A DNA stretch of 40,459 bases from positions 1-40,459 of the forward strand of contig VXPE01000103.1 of the NCBI GenBank assembly GCA_009839745.1, in the 5' to 3' direction. Origin of the DNA: Candidatus Poribacteria bacterium (lineage in GTDB: Bacteria; Poribacteria; WGA-4E; WGA-3G). The notes under the pieces were generated by a model. The model saw only the letters and a program-made list of their open reading frames with translations, had not been told where the DNA came from and did not search any database. A program made the translations under genes and the position numbers. Shown piece after piece: positions 5,039 through 11,155 of the stretch (positions are counted from its first letter, which is position 1; each line of letters starts with the position of its first letter).

Positions 5039-5956
5039 ATGGAAACTACCACATTGAAAATTGAACCCGCAACAACGAAACTCGGTTGGATTGGGACGGG
5101 TGTAATGGGCCGGTGGATGTGTCAACATCTGATGGACCTCGGATATGGCATGACCGTCTATAACCGGACGAAATCAAAGGCTGATCCGTTACTCGAAGCG
5201 GGGGCGGCATGGGCAGATTCCCCGAGCGACGTTGCAGCTGCCTCCGATATTATCTTCACAATTGTCGGTTTTCCCCCCGATGTCCGTGAAGTTTACCTCG
5301 GTGACAGTGGGATTTTAAAGGGGGCGAAACCCGGAAGTATCATCGTTGATATGACCACGACGGAACCCTCTCTCGCGCAGGAGATTGACGCCGCCGCGCA
5401 GGCACAGGACGTTTCATCCATCGATGCCCCTGTTTCAGGCGGAGATGTCGGTGCGCGAGAGGCGCGTCTCTCTATCATGGTCGGCGGCGATGAGGGTGCT
5501 GTGCAAGCCGTTATGCCCCTCTTCGAGGCGATGGGGGGAAATATCGTCCATCAAGGCGGCGCAGGGGCTGGACAACACACCAAAATGTGCAATCAGATCA
5601 CGATTTCGGGGACAATGATCGGGGTCTGCGAAGGATTAATCTACGGCTACAGAGCTGGATTGGATCTGGAGACGATGCTGTCCTCGATTAGTGGCGGTGC
5701 AGCGGCGTGTTGGTCGCTGGACAATTTAGCCCCACGGGTTCTTCAGCGGAACTTCGACCCTGGCTTCTTTGTAGAGCATTTTATCAAGGATATGAGCATC
5801 GCTTTAGACGAGGCACGCAAGATGAATCTGAGTCTCCCAGGGCTTGCGTTGGTGCATCAACTTTACACAGCTGTTCAGGCACAGGGGCACGGTAGGTTAG
5901 GCACCCAAGCACTGATGCTGGCGTTGGAGCAGATGTCGGGTGTCGAAGTGAACTAA
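5039..5956 (+). CDS. NAD(P)-dependent beta-hydroxyacid dehydrogenase (3-hydroxyisobutyrate dehydrogenase family)
   Basis: A 305-residue two-domain oxidoreductase of the HIBADH / tartronate-semialdehyde reductase family. The Rossmann motif G-T-G-V-M-G is at 19-24, the substrate loop DAPVSGG at 129-135, and the catalytic lysine is K182 in [11 protein letters not shown], with the conserved Asn three residues later. [12 protein letters not shown] near 250-260 is the usual C-terminal helix. An AAAGGAAAG precedes the ATG. It should reduce or oxidise a short beta-hydroxy acid in the cytoplasm; which one is not readable. It has no obvious operon partner. Confidence 0.85.
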
Positions 5957-6155
5957 AATCTCGCTTGTTGACTGTTTCAGTCTGGGTGAACGCGCTTTAA
6001 AATCGTGAATTGCAATTGCCGTTCGATAGGCGCGGTTTGATGAAGTTTAAGTATTTAAATTCGGTAGACTTTCAGAGGTTTCCTCTTGCGGTAGGTGTGA
6101 GCGGTGCTCGCGATTCCCGGGCAGAGTTCACACAAACGATTACCGAATTATTTTT

Positions 6156-6408
6156 TAATCTTCATGTAACCGTGCCTTTTTTGTTTCAAACCGACGTTGT
6201 AAAATATTGCCCAAGTTCAATTTTTTGCATCAGAGCAATTGTTTTGCCCAGTTTAAACGTCTTATATAGATAATGGCGATACCATAGTGCTGTTCTGGAG
6301 GTCATTATGAAATTTCATAGCAAGAATCACAACGGCAATTTGGATACAATCGCGATGTTTATCAAGGAACATGAACGTTTACTTCGATGCATCATCAAGA
6401 CATACATT
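6156..6408 (+). repeat. 253-bp direct repeat, copy 1 (sigma leader and sigma 5' end)
   Basis: This segment recurs at 8407-8659 with an offset of exactly 2251 bases and, as read by eye, one difference (AAGG at 6364-6367 against AGGG in copy 2). It covers the untranslated leader, the ribosome site and the first 34 codons of the sigma gene. The rest of the gap, 5957-6155, has no recognisable gene. Confidence 0.95.
6239..6272 (+). promoter_or_regulatory. candidate promoter of the sigma locus (also present in the second copy)
   Basis: Two overlapping weak sigma-70 readings exist: TTGTTT (6239-6244) with TATATA (6263-6268), or TTGCCC (6244-6249) with TAGATA (6267-6272) at 17 bases. An ECF-type promoter further up, near GTAACC at 6166-6171, is also conceivable because these sigma factors are often autoregulated. 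The same sequence stands before the second lipoprotein at about 8490-8523. Confidence 0.35.
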
Positions 6409-6846
6409 AAAAATGTAGATGATGCCGAGGATGTCTTTCAAGAAGCAACCCTTAAGATCCTTGAACACTTTGAGAAGGGTAAATCTGTGAAACATCCGAA
6501 GGCATGGATGGCCAGGATCGTCAGAAACGAGTGCGTCAATTTCCAGCGTCAAATGGAAAGATACGCAAATAGAAACATAGCCCTGGTACCCTTTATTAAC
6601 CGTGCGGCGTTTGGCGGCGGTATGAGTATCCCCGATGAGCAGCATCAAGCAGTCATTACCCAAGAGATTCTGGATCGGATTGCGGCACTGGGTTCGATCT
6701 ATAGTGATGTAGTGCTGTTATGGATTGATGGATACACCGCTGTTGAGATTTCAGAGAGATTGGGGATTGCCGAAGGCACAGTGAGAACTCGGCTCTGTTA
6801 TATCAGAAAGAAGGTCCGAGAGTACTTGCAGATAGGAAATGCCTAA
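6307..6846 (+). CDS. ECF-family RNA polymerase sigma factor
   Basis: The 179-residue protein has sigma region 2 at about 16-82 (VDDAEDVFQEATLKI, then HPKAWMARIVRNECVNF) and region 4 at about 116-175, with a helix-turn-helix reading YTAVEISERLGIAEGTVRTRL. Regions 1 and 3 are missing, as in extracytoplasmic-function sigmas. GGAGGT before the ATG is a strong ribosome site. No typical zinc-binding anti-sigma protein follows. The next gene, 20 bases on, encodes a single-pass membrane protein that is the best candidate for an anti-sigma-like partner, by position only. The leader and the first 34 codons are duplicated downstream. Confidence 0.92.
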   Translation: MKFHSKNHNGNLDTIAMFIKEHERLLRCIIKTYIKNVDDAEDVFQEATLKILEHFEKGKSVKHPKAWMARIVRNECVNFQRQMERYANRNIALVPFINRAAFGGGMSIPDEQHQAVITQEILDRIAALGSIYSDVVLLWIDGYTAVEISERLGIAEGTVRTRLCYIRKKVREYLQIGNA

Positions 6847-6866
6847 TTCTCTGTGGAGGTGTTTTG

Positions 6867-7517
6867 ATGTTGAAACGAAATTGGCACTGGGCCCTTGGTG
6901 CCCTTATCCTTATTGGTGTTGGTGGCTTTATGTTCTTAAGACCCACAACTTCTCCCGAGCCTATAAAAATCTATAGGACGGTAACACCTGCCCCCAAGCG
7001 TGCTCCTACGACAGAAACGAAGACCGAGAAAACGGACATCGCCTTGCAATACGGGCATCTGCAGGACCATAGCCATGGCGATTCGCATGAGACCGGTCCG
7101 CACTCCCATGCAGCCGAAACAAACACGCACAGTGACGAGTATGACTGGCGAGATGACAGCGTGTTCGATGTTACGCCTCCAAAAAATGATCCGTGGGGCC
7201 AAACTCATCCCGTGAGTGAACCTACCAAGGCTGCGGACGATACCTACCCGCCCCGAGACTGGTATAAAACAGAAGATCCCGAGTTGCGTGCAGAATATCT
7301 TTATGCCCAATTCATCAAACAGTTTGGGGATACGCCTGAAGTTCAAGCCATTGGAGATTATGAGTTAAAAGTCGCCCGTGGTATTCCTCCAACACTCGAG
7401 GAATATACCCATTATCTTGAAGCACACTACCATCTCTTTCCGAATCAACACAACCGACAAACGCTCGACAATTTGCGAAAAGCAATCGCATCAGGAAACG
7501 CAATTATCTTTGAATAA
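6867..7517 (+). CDS. membrane-anchored protein with His-rich segment and one repeated-module domain
   Basis: The 216-residue product has a short basic N-terminus, one membrane helix at about 8-24, a Pro/Thr linker, a histidine-rich stretch at 64-90 (ten His, possible metal binding) and a C-terminal module at about 140-208. That module, K-Q-F-G-D-x-P-E-V followed by Y-L-E-A-H-Y-H-L-F-P and N-R-x-x-L, recurs twice in each of the two following lipoproteins. The ATG at 6867 has GGAGGT at 6854-6859; a TTG at 6864 is also open. It lies 20 bases after the sigma gene and 13 before the first lipoprotein, so one transcript is likely. I do not recognise the family; a sensor or anti-sigma role is inference from position and topology. 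Confidence 0.75.
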   Translation: MLKRNWHWALGALILIGVGGFMFLRPTTSPEPIKIYRTVTPAPKRAPTTETKTEKTDIALQYGHLQDHSHGDSHETGPHSHAAETNTHSDEYDWRDDSVFDVTPPKNDPWGQTHPVSEPTKAADDTYPPRDWYKTEDPELRAEYLYAQFIKQFGDTPEVQAIGDYELKVARGIPPTLEEYTHYLEAHYHLFPNQHNRQTLDNLRKAIASGNAIIFE

Positions 7518-7530
7518 GAGGAGCCCCTTA

Positions 7531-8259
7531 ATGAAAAGCATCTTTTTTTCCCTCATAATCCTTTTTTCGCTCTCTTTCATTCTCAGTTGCGGAGAAACCG
7601 ACAATCCGGCAATAGATAAAACCGAAACATACGAATCCTTTGAATCCGTTTTTCCACTGGCGGAAAATATACCTCTCTCTGACTATCCTGATGGGTGGAT
7701 AAAATTGACAGATGAAGATGTAGCAGAACTTATGGAGGTCGAGATTCCACCAAACTGGTTCAAGATGGACATAGATCCGGAGGCCCGTACTAAATATACC
7801 CACGCTCAACTCCTCAAACAGTTCGGAGACATTCCGCAGGTTAGGTATATCATAGAGTTTGGACGGAATCCGGAGTTTGAGATATCGCGTGAACTCTTTG
7901 TTGCTTATTTTGAAGCACACTATCATCTCTTTCCGACCGAAAACAATCGGCGTGCGCTTGAAGAAGCTCGAAACATCGAAAATCAGCCCCGTCCAGAGTT
8001 TGTAGATGAGGATAAACTAATAGAGAAAGATCCCAAATTATTCATTGAAATTCAGCGAGAACGGTTCATTAAAAATCATGGAGATATTCCAGAAGTACAC
8101 ACCTATCTAGATATTCAGTTAAAATTCTTGTTAGATCAACATGTAACAGATGATGAGCGCTTGGCTTGGCTCAAAGCACAATTCCATCTCTTTCCAACCA
8201 AAAAGAATCGGGATTTACTGAAAAAATATCAAAAAGCAAAAGAGGATGGGGACGAATAA
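7531..8259 (+). CDS. lipoprotein A with two copies of the sigma-locus module
   Basis: A 242-residue protein with a lipoprotein signal ending in FILSC (lipidated Cys at 20). After a linker rich in Asp, Glu and Pro it carries two modules, about 86-149 and 171-238, each with the pattern G-D-I-P-x-V and a later HLFPT-x-x-N-R. The ATG at 7531 follows AAGAGGAG; the frame is open upstream to 7378, but that would run inside the previous gene and bury the lipobox. The paralogue at 8679 is nearly identical through the first module. Function is unknown; the lipid anchor and sigma linkage suggest an envelope component of the regulon. Confidence 0.8.
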   Translation: MKSIFFSLIILFSLSFILSCGETDNPAIDKTETYESFESVFPLAENIPLSDYPDGWIKLTDEDVAELMEVEIPPNWFKMDIDPEARTKYTHAQLLKQFGDIPQVRYIIEFGRNPEFEISRELFVAYFEAHYHLFPTENNRRALEEARNIENQPRPEFVDEDKLIEKDPKLFIEIQRERFIKNHGDIPEVHTYLDIQLKFLLDQHVTDDERLAWLKAQFHLFPTKKNRDLLKKYQKAKEDGDE

Positions 8260-8273
8260 TACTGCTTCTTTTA

Positions 8274-8406
8274 TAGTAGATTTGGCAAATACGTTTACAT
8301 CTTTGTAGCTTATGAGACCGTTAGTTTCCTGTGCCTCCGTGAGACGGGTCTTCCTTCACAAAACCACACAACCATACGAGTGTATAAGTAATTACGGAAT
8401 CTACTA
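8274..8406. mobile_element. MITE-like element, 133 bp, TA target duplication
   Basis: TAGTAGATT (8274-8282) is the exact inverse of AATCTACTA (8398-8406), and the similarity of the arms continues imperfectly for about 35 bases. TA dinucleotides flank both ends (8272-8273 and 8407-8408), the target duplication typical of IS630/Tc1-mariner elements. No coding frame fits inside. Homology of copy 2 to copy 1 begins precisely at the right-hand TA. Confidence 0.75.
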
Positions 8407-8659
8407 TAATCTTCATGTAACCGTGCCTTTTTTGTTTCAAACCGACGTTGTAAAATATTGCCCAAGTTCAATTTTTTGCATCAGAGCAATTGTTTTGCCC
8501 AGTTTAAACGTCTTATATAGATAATGGCGATACCATAGTGCTGTTCTGGAGGTCATTATGAAATTTCATAGCAAGAATCACAACGGCAATTTGGATACAA
8601 TCGCGATGTTTATCAGGGAACATGAACGTTTACTTCGATGCATCATCAAGACATACATT
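8407..8659 (+). repeat. 253-bp direct repeat, copy 2
   Basis: This is the second copy of 6156-6408. It ends at CATACATT and then runs straight into GAATAAGAGGAG, the sequence that in the first copy stands before lipoprotein A (7511-7522). The junction is therefore a duplication followed by deletion of most of the sigma gene and all of the membrane-protein gene. Confidence 0.95.
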
Positions 8660-8665
8660 GAATAA
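8558..8665 (+). pseudogene. 35-codon remnant of the sigma gene
   Basis: The first 34 sigma codons are kept in frame, with the original GGAGGT ribosome site, then one new codon (Glu) and TAA. One codon differs from the parent (K20 to R). Sigma regions 2 and 4 are lost, so no sigma activity is possible. Its stop overlaps the ribosome site of the next gene (ATG 8679), so it may act as a translated leader peptide coupled to lipoprotein B. Confidence 0.85.
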
Positions 8666-8678
8666 GAGGAGTTTCTCA

Positions 8679-9449
8679 ATGAAAAGCATCCTGTCTTTAC
8701 TCACATGCCTCCTTTGCATCTCCTTTATCCTCGGATGCACAGCAGTGGATAATCCGGTAGCCCAGGAAACCGATGAATCCCTGTTTCTATTGGTGGAAAA
8801 CGTTCCCCCCTCAGGCTATCCTGACGGGTGGGTAAAATTGACAGATGAAGATGTCTCAGAACTTATGAATCTGGAGATTCTCCCGAACTGGCACAATATG
8901 AACATCTCTCAAGAATGGAAAAACAAGTATACCCATGCCACACTCCTTAAACAATTTGGAGACATCCCGCAAGTCCGATTTATTATAGAGTTTGGACGGA
9001 ATCCAGGGTTTGAGATATCGCGTGAACTCTTTGTTGCTTATTTTCAAGTACACTACCATCTCTTTCCGACTGAAAACAATCGACGTGCGCTTGAAGAAGC
9101 TCGCAACATCGAAAATCAGCCACGCCCCAAACCTCCAGAAACAGAAATAAAAAGAGTACCAATCACCATAGAACTCGCCGAGGAAATACGTGCAGAACTC
9201 ATCAGGAAACACGGAAATATCCCACAAGTTCACACAGTTGCAAATTTTTACAAAAAAGTGGCACGAAATATATCTATAACATATGACGATTATCTTCCCT
9301 ATCTTGAAGCGCGGTCCCAGCTTGATCCTCAGAATGAACGCATTCGCCAGAAACTTGAAAAATATAAAAAGGCAAAAGTTGAAGGAGTCCCATTCCATCT
9401 TGTAGATGAAACAGGACGAATAATGCTGTTTATTTTCTCATCCCCTTGA
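8679..9449 (+). CDS. lipoprotein B, paralogue of lipoprotein A
   Basis: A 256-residue protein with a lipoprotein signal ending FILGC (Cys 20). Modules lie at about 82-147 and 166-236. The first is almost the same as in lipoprotein A; the second has diverged (HGNIPQV, then LEARSQLDP in place of the HLFP motif). The C-terminus adds about 20 residues ending FIFSSP. The ATG at 8679 with AAGAGGAG matches the start of lipoprotein A; the frame runs upstream to 8622 only through duplicated leader. It arose by tandem duplication and is expressed from the copied sigma leader. Function is unknown. Confidence 0.8.
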   Translation: MKSILSLLTCLLCISFILGCTAVDNPVAQETDESLFLLVENVPPSGYPDGWVKLTDEDVSELMNLEILPNWHNMNISQEWKNKYTHATLLKQFGDIPQVRFIIEFGRNPGFEISRELFVAYFQVHYHLFPTENNRRALEEARNIENQPRPKPPETEIKRVPITIELAEEIRAELIRKHGNIPQVHTVANFYKKVARNISITYDDYLPYLEARSQLDPQNERIRQKLEKYKKAKVEGVPFHLVDETGRIMLFIFSSP

Positions 9450-9558
9450 GAGGGATACGCTCTGATAATGGAGTTATATAGGTGAACATTCTCATCGAAA
9501 AACTTAACGGCTGGCAAACACCAGCGATTTTACACATAGATAACAAAAGGAGAACAAA

Positions 9559-9936
9559 ATGTTGAAAGAATTTTTTGGGGTTTTAAGCTTCCTAATGTTT
9601 GTATGTGCCTTTGCTGTTCCTTTATTGGTGCTGACGGACCCCGCAGTTGGCGATGATAACTACACAATCACTCAACCTTACACAGCGTATTATACTTGTC
9701 CCGATGGCACGCTTCTCTATACGAGGACAGGCACATCTTCAAATACATCAACGGTAAACCATCCTGCAGATATCCTTGAGGAGTATCTCCATTGCTATGA
9801 AGAACAATGGTGGCCTTTTGATACGGTATGTGAGACAGCGTATCGCTATGTGCATGCCTCTCACGGCATGACGTATGTCTATAATGCAAGTCGTGTGTAT
9901 TACTATTACGATGCCAGCCCGGAGGCGTGCCGTTAG
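9559..9936 (+). CDS. small secreted Tyr/Cys-rich protein
   Basis: A 125-residue protein with a hydrophobic N-terminal segment at about 8-26 that can serve as signal peptide. The mature part has five cysteines and many tyrosines, including a run of four near residues 114-117, suggesting disulfide bonds outside the cytoplasm. An AAAAGGAG ribosome site stands 7 bases before the ATG. It follows lipoprotein B after 109 bases and is closed by the terminator at 9987. I do not recognise the family. It may belong to the sigma regulon, by position only. Confidence 0.65.
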   Translation: MLKEFFGVLSFLMFVCAFAVPLLVLTDPAVGDDNYTITQPYTAYYTCPDGTLLYTRTGTSSNTSTVNHPADILEEYLHCYEEQWWPFDTVCETAYRYVHASHGMTYVYNASRVYYYYDASPEACR

Positions 9937-9986
9937 ACACATGTGTATCACGTTAAACATAGCGTTAAAGTTGATAGAGGTTGAAC

Positions 9987-10021
9987 AAAGAAGGGATACG
10001 GTGTAACCGTATCCCTTCTTT
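9987..10021. terminator. bidirectional terminator
   Basis: A perfect 15-bp stem, AAGAAGGGATACGGT (9988-10002) with ACCGTATCCCTTCTT (10006-10020), has the loop GTA and extends one more A-T pair. It separates two converging genes, the small secreted protein and dnaN, and has A/T-rich arm ends that give a U-run in both directions. Confidence 0.9.
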
Positions 10022-10042
10022 CATGGTAAGAACTCCCAGTTT

Positions 10043-11155
10043 TTATGCTGAAGCGGGATCCAGGCGCATGGGCATGATGAGCGAGACATAGTTATCGTCG
10101 CCTACCGGCTTCACAAGAACCGGGTTCAACTCACCTGAAAATTCCAGAGACAAGGACTCCGTTTCGATGTGAGCCAACGCCTCTATCAATAACCGAGCGT
10201 CGAAACCGATCCTGACGCTTCCAGTGCTTGACTCCACCGGCAGTGTTTCGTAGGCTTCCCCTAACTCTGGGGTCTTCGCAGAGACTTGAACCTGTTCAGG
10301 GTCGATTTCTAAGCAGATCGAATAGTTCTTCGGATTCGACAGGAGAGCGACCCGCCGCGTTGCACTTAAGATGCCTTCTTTTGGAACGACGGCTCTGCCT
10401 TCAGTCGATTCGGGAATGATTTTCTCGTATTTCGGGTAATCCCCCTCCACGAGCCGCGTCGTTAAGGTCGCGTTTCCATCGGTAAAGAGGATTTGGTTTT
10501 CAAAAACTGAGATGCTGACCTCTCCAGCATCAGCGAAGGTTCGCGTAATCTCGCGGACAGCTTTCAACGGAACGATGAATCCGTTGGCTTCTCCCGGTGA
10601 GGTGAGAGGCTCGCAGCGCGCCAATGCCAGGCGTTTACCATCCGTGGCGACTATCTCAGTGCCATGCTCCAGAAAATTGAAATAGAGTCCATTCAGGAAG
10701 TAACGCACCTCTTCTGTAGAGGCGGCAAACTCCGTTTTCTGAAGGACATCCCGTAAGGTCTCTCCGCCGATCTTCAAGGCTTCCCCTTCAACTGAAGGGA
10801 GTTGTGGGAATTCTTCATCCGGCAGTCCGATGATTTTGTAAACACCCTCCCCACAGGTAATCTCAACACGGTCGTTTGCTGTCGTTGCCAAGTGTATCGG
10901 TTTGTCCGCAGGTAACTCCTTAACAATATCTCCTAACTTCTTAGCGGAGACGGTGATTGCTCCTTCCTCTGTGATGGTCCCTTCAACCGCCATTCTAATG
11001 CCGACTTCCAGATCCGTTGCCATGCACTCAATCGTGCCGCCGGTGGCATTGATGAGGACATTTGAGAGGATTGGTAGGGTCGTCCGTCCACTTGCGACAC
11101 CTTGCAGGACCTGTAAGGCGTCTAAAAGATCATCCCTTTCAAAAGTTAATTCCAT
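10043..11155 (-). CDS. dnaN: DNA polymerase III beta subunit (sliding clamp)
   Basis: The 370-residue product is the three-domain clamp that holds DNA polymerase III on DNA. Recognisable segments include the opening MELTFERDDLLDAL, LPILSNVLI, AVDG-like EIVATDGKRLALARC near the domain 2 start, FLNGLYFNF and the C-terminal end NYVSLIMPMRLDP. Length is typical. GGAAGGAGAG precedes the ATG. dnaA, recF and gyrB are not adjacent, so dnaN stands apart from the classic origin cluster here. A promoter candidate lies about 265 bases upstream. Confidence 0.97.
   Translation of the reverse strand: MELTFERDDLLDALQVLQGVASGRTTLPILSNVLINATGGTIECMATDLEVGIRMAVEGTITEEGAITVSAKKLGDIVKELPADKPIHLATTANDRVEITCGEGVYKIIGLPDEEFPQLPSVEGEALKIGGETLRDVLQKTEFAASTEEVRYFLNGLYFNFLEHGTEIVATDGKRLALARCEPLTSPGEANGFIVPLKAVREITRTFADAGEVSISVFENQILFTDGNATLTTRLVEGDYPKYEKIIPESTEGRAVVPKEGILSATRRVALLSNPKNYSICLEIDPEQVQVSAKTPELGEAYETLPVESSTGSVRIGFDARLLIEALAHIETESLSLEFSGELNPVLVKPVGDDNYVSLIMPMRLDPASA

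Follow-up and report, generated by a model that had tools for sequence, protein, structure and literature searches.

What role does an ECF sigma factor play at the head of a set of envelope proteins that share an otherwise undescribed module? The question is raised by a 40,459-nt stretch of a Candidatus Poribacteria bacterium (contig VXPE01000103.1 in full, hereafter the window), for which a sequence-only reading had described a sigma gene followed by one membrane-anchored protein and two lipoproteins carrying the module once, twice and twice, and had suggested an envelope signalling or scavenging system. Having checked the open reading frames and their translations, we confirmed the genes for the sigma factor, the transmembrane (TM) protein, lipoprotein 1 (LP1) and lipoprotein 2 (LP2), together with all five modules, at the positions listed here alongside the features of their upstream regions and a downstream gene.

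6156..6411, + strand: original copy of a 256-bp duplication, comprising the sigma upstream region and first 35 codons (254/256 identical to 8407-8662)
6242..6268, + strand: putative ECF promoter before the sigma gene, TTTTGCCC-N8-CGTCTTATATA, common to the sigma relatives at L179, L183, L186 and L187
6307..6846, + strand: ECF sigma factor, 179 aa, regions 2 and 4 (Pfam Sigma70_r2 E 1.2e-12, Sigma70_r4_2 E 3.7e-8; TIGR02937 E 2.3e-20)
6867..7517, + strand: TM-anchored protein with N-terminal helix, PEPIKIY motif, His-rich linker and one module
7248..7499, + strand: module 1, in the TM protein (profile match E 8.1e-40)
7531..8259, + strand: LP1, lipobox ..FILSC, two modules
7744..7989, + strand: module 2, in LP1 (profile match E 3.7e-40)
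8020..8256, + strand: module 3, in LP1 (profile match E 1.7e-35)
8407..8662, + strand: duplicate in front of LP2, leaving a 36-codon sigma fragment (8558-8668)
8493..8519, + strand: second copy of the putative ECF promoter, before LP2, via the 256-bp duplication
8679..9449, + strand: LP2, lipobox ..FILGC, two modules, the second degenerate
8877..9122, + strand: module 4, in LP2 (profile match E 2.1e-38)
9174..9392, + strand: module 5, in LP2, degenerate (profile match E 1.4e-31)
9559..9936, + strand: small secreted protein (SSP), 125 aa, a signal-peptide-like helix followed by beta strands (17-member alignment; AlphaFold pLDDT 81)

The most likely start codons are ATG at 6867 (TM protein), 7531 (LP1) and 8679 (LP2), with 20 nt between the sigma stop and the TM-protein ATG and 13 nt between the TM gene and LP1 on the same strand, so that the first three genes are spaced as a single transcription unit would be. 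Between LP1 and LP2 come a MITE-like repeat and then the 256-bp duplicate, which repeats the sequence upstream of the sigma gene and that gene's first 35 codons. Both LP1 and LP2 are predicted lipoproteins whose lipobox signal peptides can be read directly (MKSIFFSLIILFSLSFILSC and MKSILSLLTCLLCISFILGC), and the envelope signals that had been reported for the three proteins are present in each. Neither the duplication nor the conserved fourth gene at 9559-9936 had figured in the sequence-only reading.

The module holds up as a family of its own. Aligned, the five window copies share invariant G, P, V, L, P, R and L residues, and a profile built from them matches every one (E 1e-31 to 4e-40) and locates more copies on seven further contigs of the same genome. 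The pattern originally proposed for the module survives in its first half, the family-wide core being approximately F-G-D-x-P-x-V and A-x-x-x-L-x-P; its second half fares less well, as the HYH histidines are not conserved across the family and the HLFP motif is missing from the degenerate module 5, which reads YLEARSQLDPQ. No histidine and no invariant catalytic-type residue is conserved in the family alignment, and metal binding through the HYH motif was rejected for want of conservation. No model in Pfam, NCBIfam or PHROGs explains the module or the three proteins, with scattered weak matches in single members only, and 48 module relatives are likewise unaccounted for by any Pfam or NCBIfam family, which bears out, for these libraries, the earlier description of the module as undescribed. 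A pattern-based scan of 84,980 species returned 43 loci, all titled Poribacteria; profile searches of 85 Poribacteria genomes gave matches in 51, nearly all in the window's own family and with up to 23 matches per genome, and none were found in viral contigs or plasmids. With scans whose sensitivity toward distant relatives outside Poribacteria is limited, the domain is apparently confined to this one uncultivated symbiont phylum.

Structure prediction gives the module a helical build. An AlphaFold model of the two-module region of LP1 (mean pLDDT 88.9, pTM 0.53) has four helices per module, and Foldseek comparison of this model with the PDB gave no match at E 0.001 (best E 0.33), the weak matches comprising designed repeats and several TPR proteins (Bub1, NrfG, BepA and BamD among the helical-repeat matches). 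The module resembles TPR and other helical-repeat domains in its all-helical prediction, with two hairpins per module, an A-x-x-x-L-x-P helix end and tandem use; it differs in being a 65-80 residue unit of four helices, whereas TPR is a 34-residue unit, and in lacking a significant fold match. A profile match to a known domain such as a TPR or SH3 variant had been named among the findings that would undo the claim, and TPR_6 matched just one of the 48 members, at E 0.19; the predicted resemblance to TPR is thus weak. The SSP is modelled as an N-terminal helix plus five strands (pLDDT 81, pTM 0.42), again with no Foldseek match at E 0.001, and we assign no fold name to either the lipoprotein or the SSP.

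Surveying the architecture of 89 non-redundant loci, we distinguish two kinds. In TM-led clusters the first gene encodes a protein with a single module, in most cases TM-anchored, and a lipoprotein with one or two modules often comes next; lipoprotein-only loci consist of one or two lipoproteins, each with a pair of modules. The TM proteins tend to be organised alike, the helix being followed by an EPIKIYK-type motif, in many cases by a His-rich stretch, then by YDWRDD, DPWKQ and finally the module, and two proteins of this type (L190, L202) have no module. The SSP adjoins 28/58 TM-led clusters and 0/34 lipoprotein-only loci; its 17-member alignment has invariant H68, P69, H99, H102 and C124. 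Some module cassettes are directly followed by STT3-like membrane proteins (L123:7313-9718, L054, L074, L111 and L150), a family assignment that is weak, the best PDB profile match being yeast STT3 at E 0.18, and one by a PMT_2 membrane glycosyltransferase-like protein (L052:6993-8729). The window cassette has neither type of enzyme.

Regulatory genes separate the two kinds of locus. Counting sigma-54 activators and ECF or larger sigma factors within 2.5 kb upstream, we found a regulator in 20/51 TM-led cassettes compared with 1/28 lipoprotein-only loci (Fisher p 4e-4); 14 of the 20 are sigma-54 activators and six are sigma factors, and more than half of the TM-led clusters have no regulator within that distance. 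Because the seven genomes examined for background contain 12-24 matches to activators and 36-102 to sigma region 2 apiece, both linkages exceed chance, the activators far (binomial ~1e-18) and the sigma factors moderately (p 0.003), on background rates that are rough and loci that are not fully independent. Most module loci, including the closest syntenic locus (L032), have no ECF neighbour. The description of an “ECF sigma locus” therefore applies to the window, where the sigma gene is spaced with the cassette, and not to the family at large, where profile matches with no sigma linkage, named in advance as evidence against the claim, count against it in part; what recurs ahead of TM-led cassettes is a transcription regulator of their own, of one kind or another and usually a sigma-54 activator. 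On the TM-protein tree, regulator types require at least 14 changes and do not cluster (shuffled mean 15.0).

The sister loci resemble known activator-controlled operons in their order of activator, −24/−12 type site and cassette. Scoring sites at 20 or more of 23.5 against the −24/−12 consensus, we found them upstream of 10/14 activator-linked clusters versus 7/42 other TM-led clusters, with 4/56 in a reverse-strand control; the one activator tested has no receiver domain. The window locus differs from these operons in having neither an activator nor, at that threshold, a site, and sigma-54 control of its cassette was rejected on the latter ground. Elsewhere, at L202:7505, L203:7308 and L204:6354, activators are followed by sigma-54-like promoters and small Cys-containing secreted proteins with no module, and the wider class of cassettes therefore exceeds the module family.

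What drives the window cassette is most plausibly its own sigma factor. It belongs to the ECF group in having regions 2 and 4 above curated cut-offs (Sigma70_r2 47.9 bits, Sigma70_r4_2 33.3 bits; TIGR02937) and no region 3. Eleven genomes of the genus contain relatives of it at 46-57% identity; some are partial, and several are truncated or split between frames, as is the one at L187, which is split between two frames and has an SSP-like and a TM-module gene as neighbours. Others (L180:7312-9801, L189:4201-6614) stand near a small Cys-rich protein, and L180, the one tested, also near a cytochrome c554 / GILT-DsbA protein. Poribacteria further encode many proteins of ~1000 residues with an N-terminal ECF-like sigma domain and a long C-terminal extension (L065:2776-5730, L049:2497-5379; many frames of 900-1070 aa).

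An upstream pattern, TTTTGNNC-N8-CGYCTTATATA, is common to the window and four sigma relatives, and with up to two mismatches the putative promoter has two matches in the window, against 0.03 expected. Across 38 genomes, with one mismatch allowed, there are 10 matches, among which two are those in the window, four, all exact, precede the sigma relatives used to derive the pattern, and two precede activator genes at the same site downstream of a dehydrogenase gene (exact in G048, one mismatch in G082). As the backwards control gave 17 matches, these raw counts carry no weight, and the case for a promoter rests on its position immediately before sigma genes, on the exact occurrence at the equivalent site in G048, and on the duplication. 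The last of these has its junction at GAATAAGAGGAG, found before both lipoprotein genes, and its two copies are 254/256 identical, compared with 88% and 76% identity across the two alignable blocks of the LP1 and LP2 genes; the upstream copy is therefore younger than the lipoprotein duplication, or was later homogenised. The MITE-like element (8271-8409) has 29-nt terminal inverted repeats that are 79% complementary, pieces resembling it occur on many other contigs of the same genome, and its right end is the exact start of the duplicated region. The presence of the motif before the sigma gene and, by duplication, before LP2 suggests that the window sigma drives both units.

The chromosomal site itself appears to be a place of exchange. 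At the site downstream of a 3-hydroxyisobutyrate-dehydrogenase-like gene, the window (5039-11155), L032, L190 and L201 each hold a different cassette, and dnaN lies downstream of the site in both the window and L032. At this site L032 has TM, lipoprotein and small secreted genes with no sigma gene; L190 has an activator, a degenerate sigma gene, a transposase and a module-less TM protein; and L201 combines an activator and a sigma-54-like site with a different TM protein.

Our preferred reading, to which we give an even chance, is that the locus is an exchangeable, often regulator-driven and Poribacteria-specific envelope cassette, with the window sigma driving two units and the helical modules acting as interaction domains. 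The computed gene content, family distribution, regulator linkage, upstream motif, duplication and helical prediction would fit a scheme of co-transcription and autoregulation in which the sigma factor most likely activates its own operon (sigma, TM protein and LP1) from the motif at 6242-6268, and would also activate a second unit (LP2 and perhaps the SSP) from the recently copied motif at 8493-8519. The products would assemble in the envelope, an inner-membrane protein reaching into the periplasm by its His-rich linker joining tandem-module lipoproteins and a small secreted beta protein. Since the module is repeated and helical, is common to membrane and lipid-anchored partners and has no conserved catalytic-type residues, we infer that it serves as a protein-interaction domain of TPR-like build; its contacts may be between the modules of the TM protein and lipoproteins, or it may hold the secreted protein. 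The sigma factor is not essential to the cassette, since the closest syntenic locus has none.

Other readings must be weighed against this one. ECF genes are usually followed directly by a gene for a single-pass membrane protein in sigma/anti-sigma systems, a layout that the window shares, as it does a motif compatible with autoregulation; the TM protein would then hold the sigma factor and release it upon a periplasmic signal sensed by the modules. However, this protein departs from that model in starting MLKRNWHW, about eight residues that run straight into the helix, in matching no anti-sigma family in Pfam or NCBIfam, and in being retained in related cassettes without any sigma gene. An anti-sigma role was rejected because the protein has no cytoplasmic part, and signalling in this sense, one half of the function originally suggested, is highly unlikely. 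For the other half, scavenging, we find no evidence, as no receptor, transporter or enzyme is consistently linked. Least probable of all is a chance neighbourhood, in which the sigma gene landed by an unrelated lipoprotein operon: the rarity of ECF genes at module loci, the placement of the same sigma family before quite different gene sets and the abundance of region-2 matches per genome would all allow it, but operon-like spacing, the copying of the sigma upstream region in front of LP2, the second such sigma at L187 and the general enrichment of regulators ahead of TM-led clusters argue against coincidence.

Periplasmic metal binding, by which the His-rich TM linker and the His/Cys secreted protein would bind a transition metal on a scaffold of modules, is a serious rival because of those linkers, 12/49 of which contain at least seven His in 30 residues compared with 4/740 other genes; the three invariant His and one invariant Cys of the SSP point the same way. 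We nevertheless think it rather unlikely, given that the module has no conserved His, many linkers are not His-rich (median 4 His in 30) and no metal transporter is consistently linked. Doubtful to a greater degree is the idea that the membrane and lipoprotein parts serve the export, modification or display of the SSP. Its recurrence beside TM-led clusters, the STT3-like or PMT-like proteins after several cassettes and the position of sigma relatives before Cys-rich small proteins are in keeping with this, against which stand the weakness of the STT3 assignment and the lack of such an enzyme in the window cassette. N-glycosylation of the SSP, an idea drawn from the STT3-like neighbours, was dropped because the number of N-x-S/T sequons, 16 against 13.9 expected, shows no enrichment (p 0.31).

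In the open full-text literature we found no paper combining “ECF sigma factor” with “Poribacteria”, or Poribacteria with sigma factor and lipoprotein, and only a passing mention of Poribacteria with sigma-54. What is new in the regulator-driven cassette proposed here is a protein domain tied to candidate promoters that are open to direct test. More tentatively, these loci could be lineage-specific, exchangeable envelope assemblies whose building blocks are a new helical domain and a small His/Cys secreted protein; copies would be wired to different regulators and exchanged for one another at chromosomal sites, perhaps in connection with life in sponges. Envelope cassettes that recur with different regulators and with a specific small secreted partner give a concrete starting point for studying how these abundant sponge symbionts control their cell surface.
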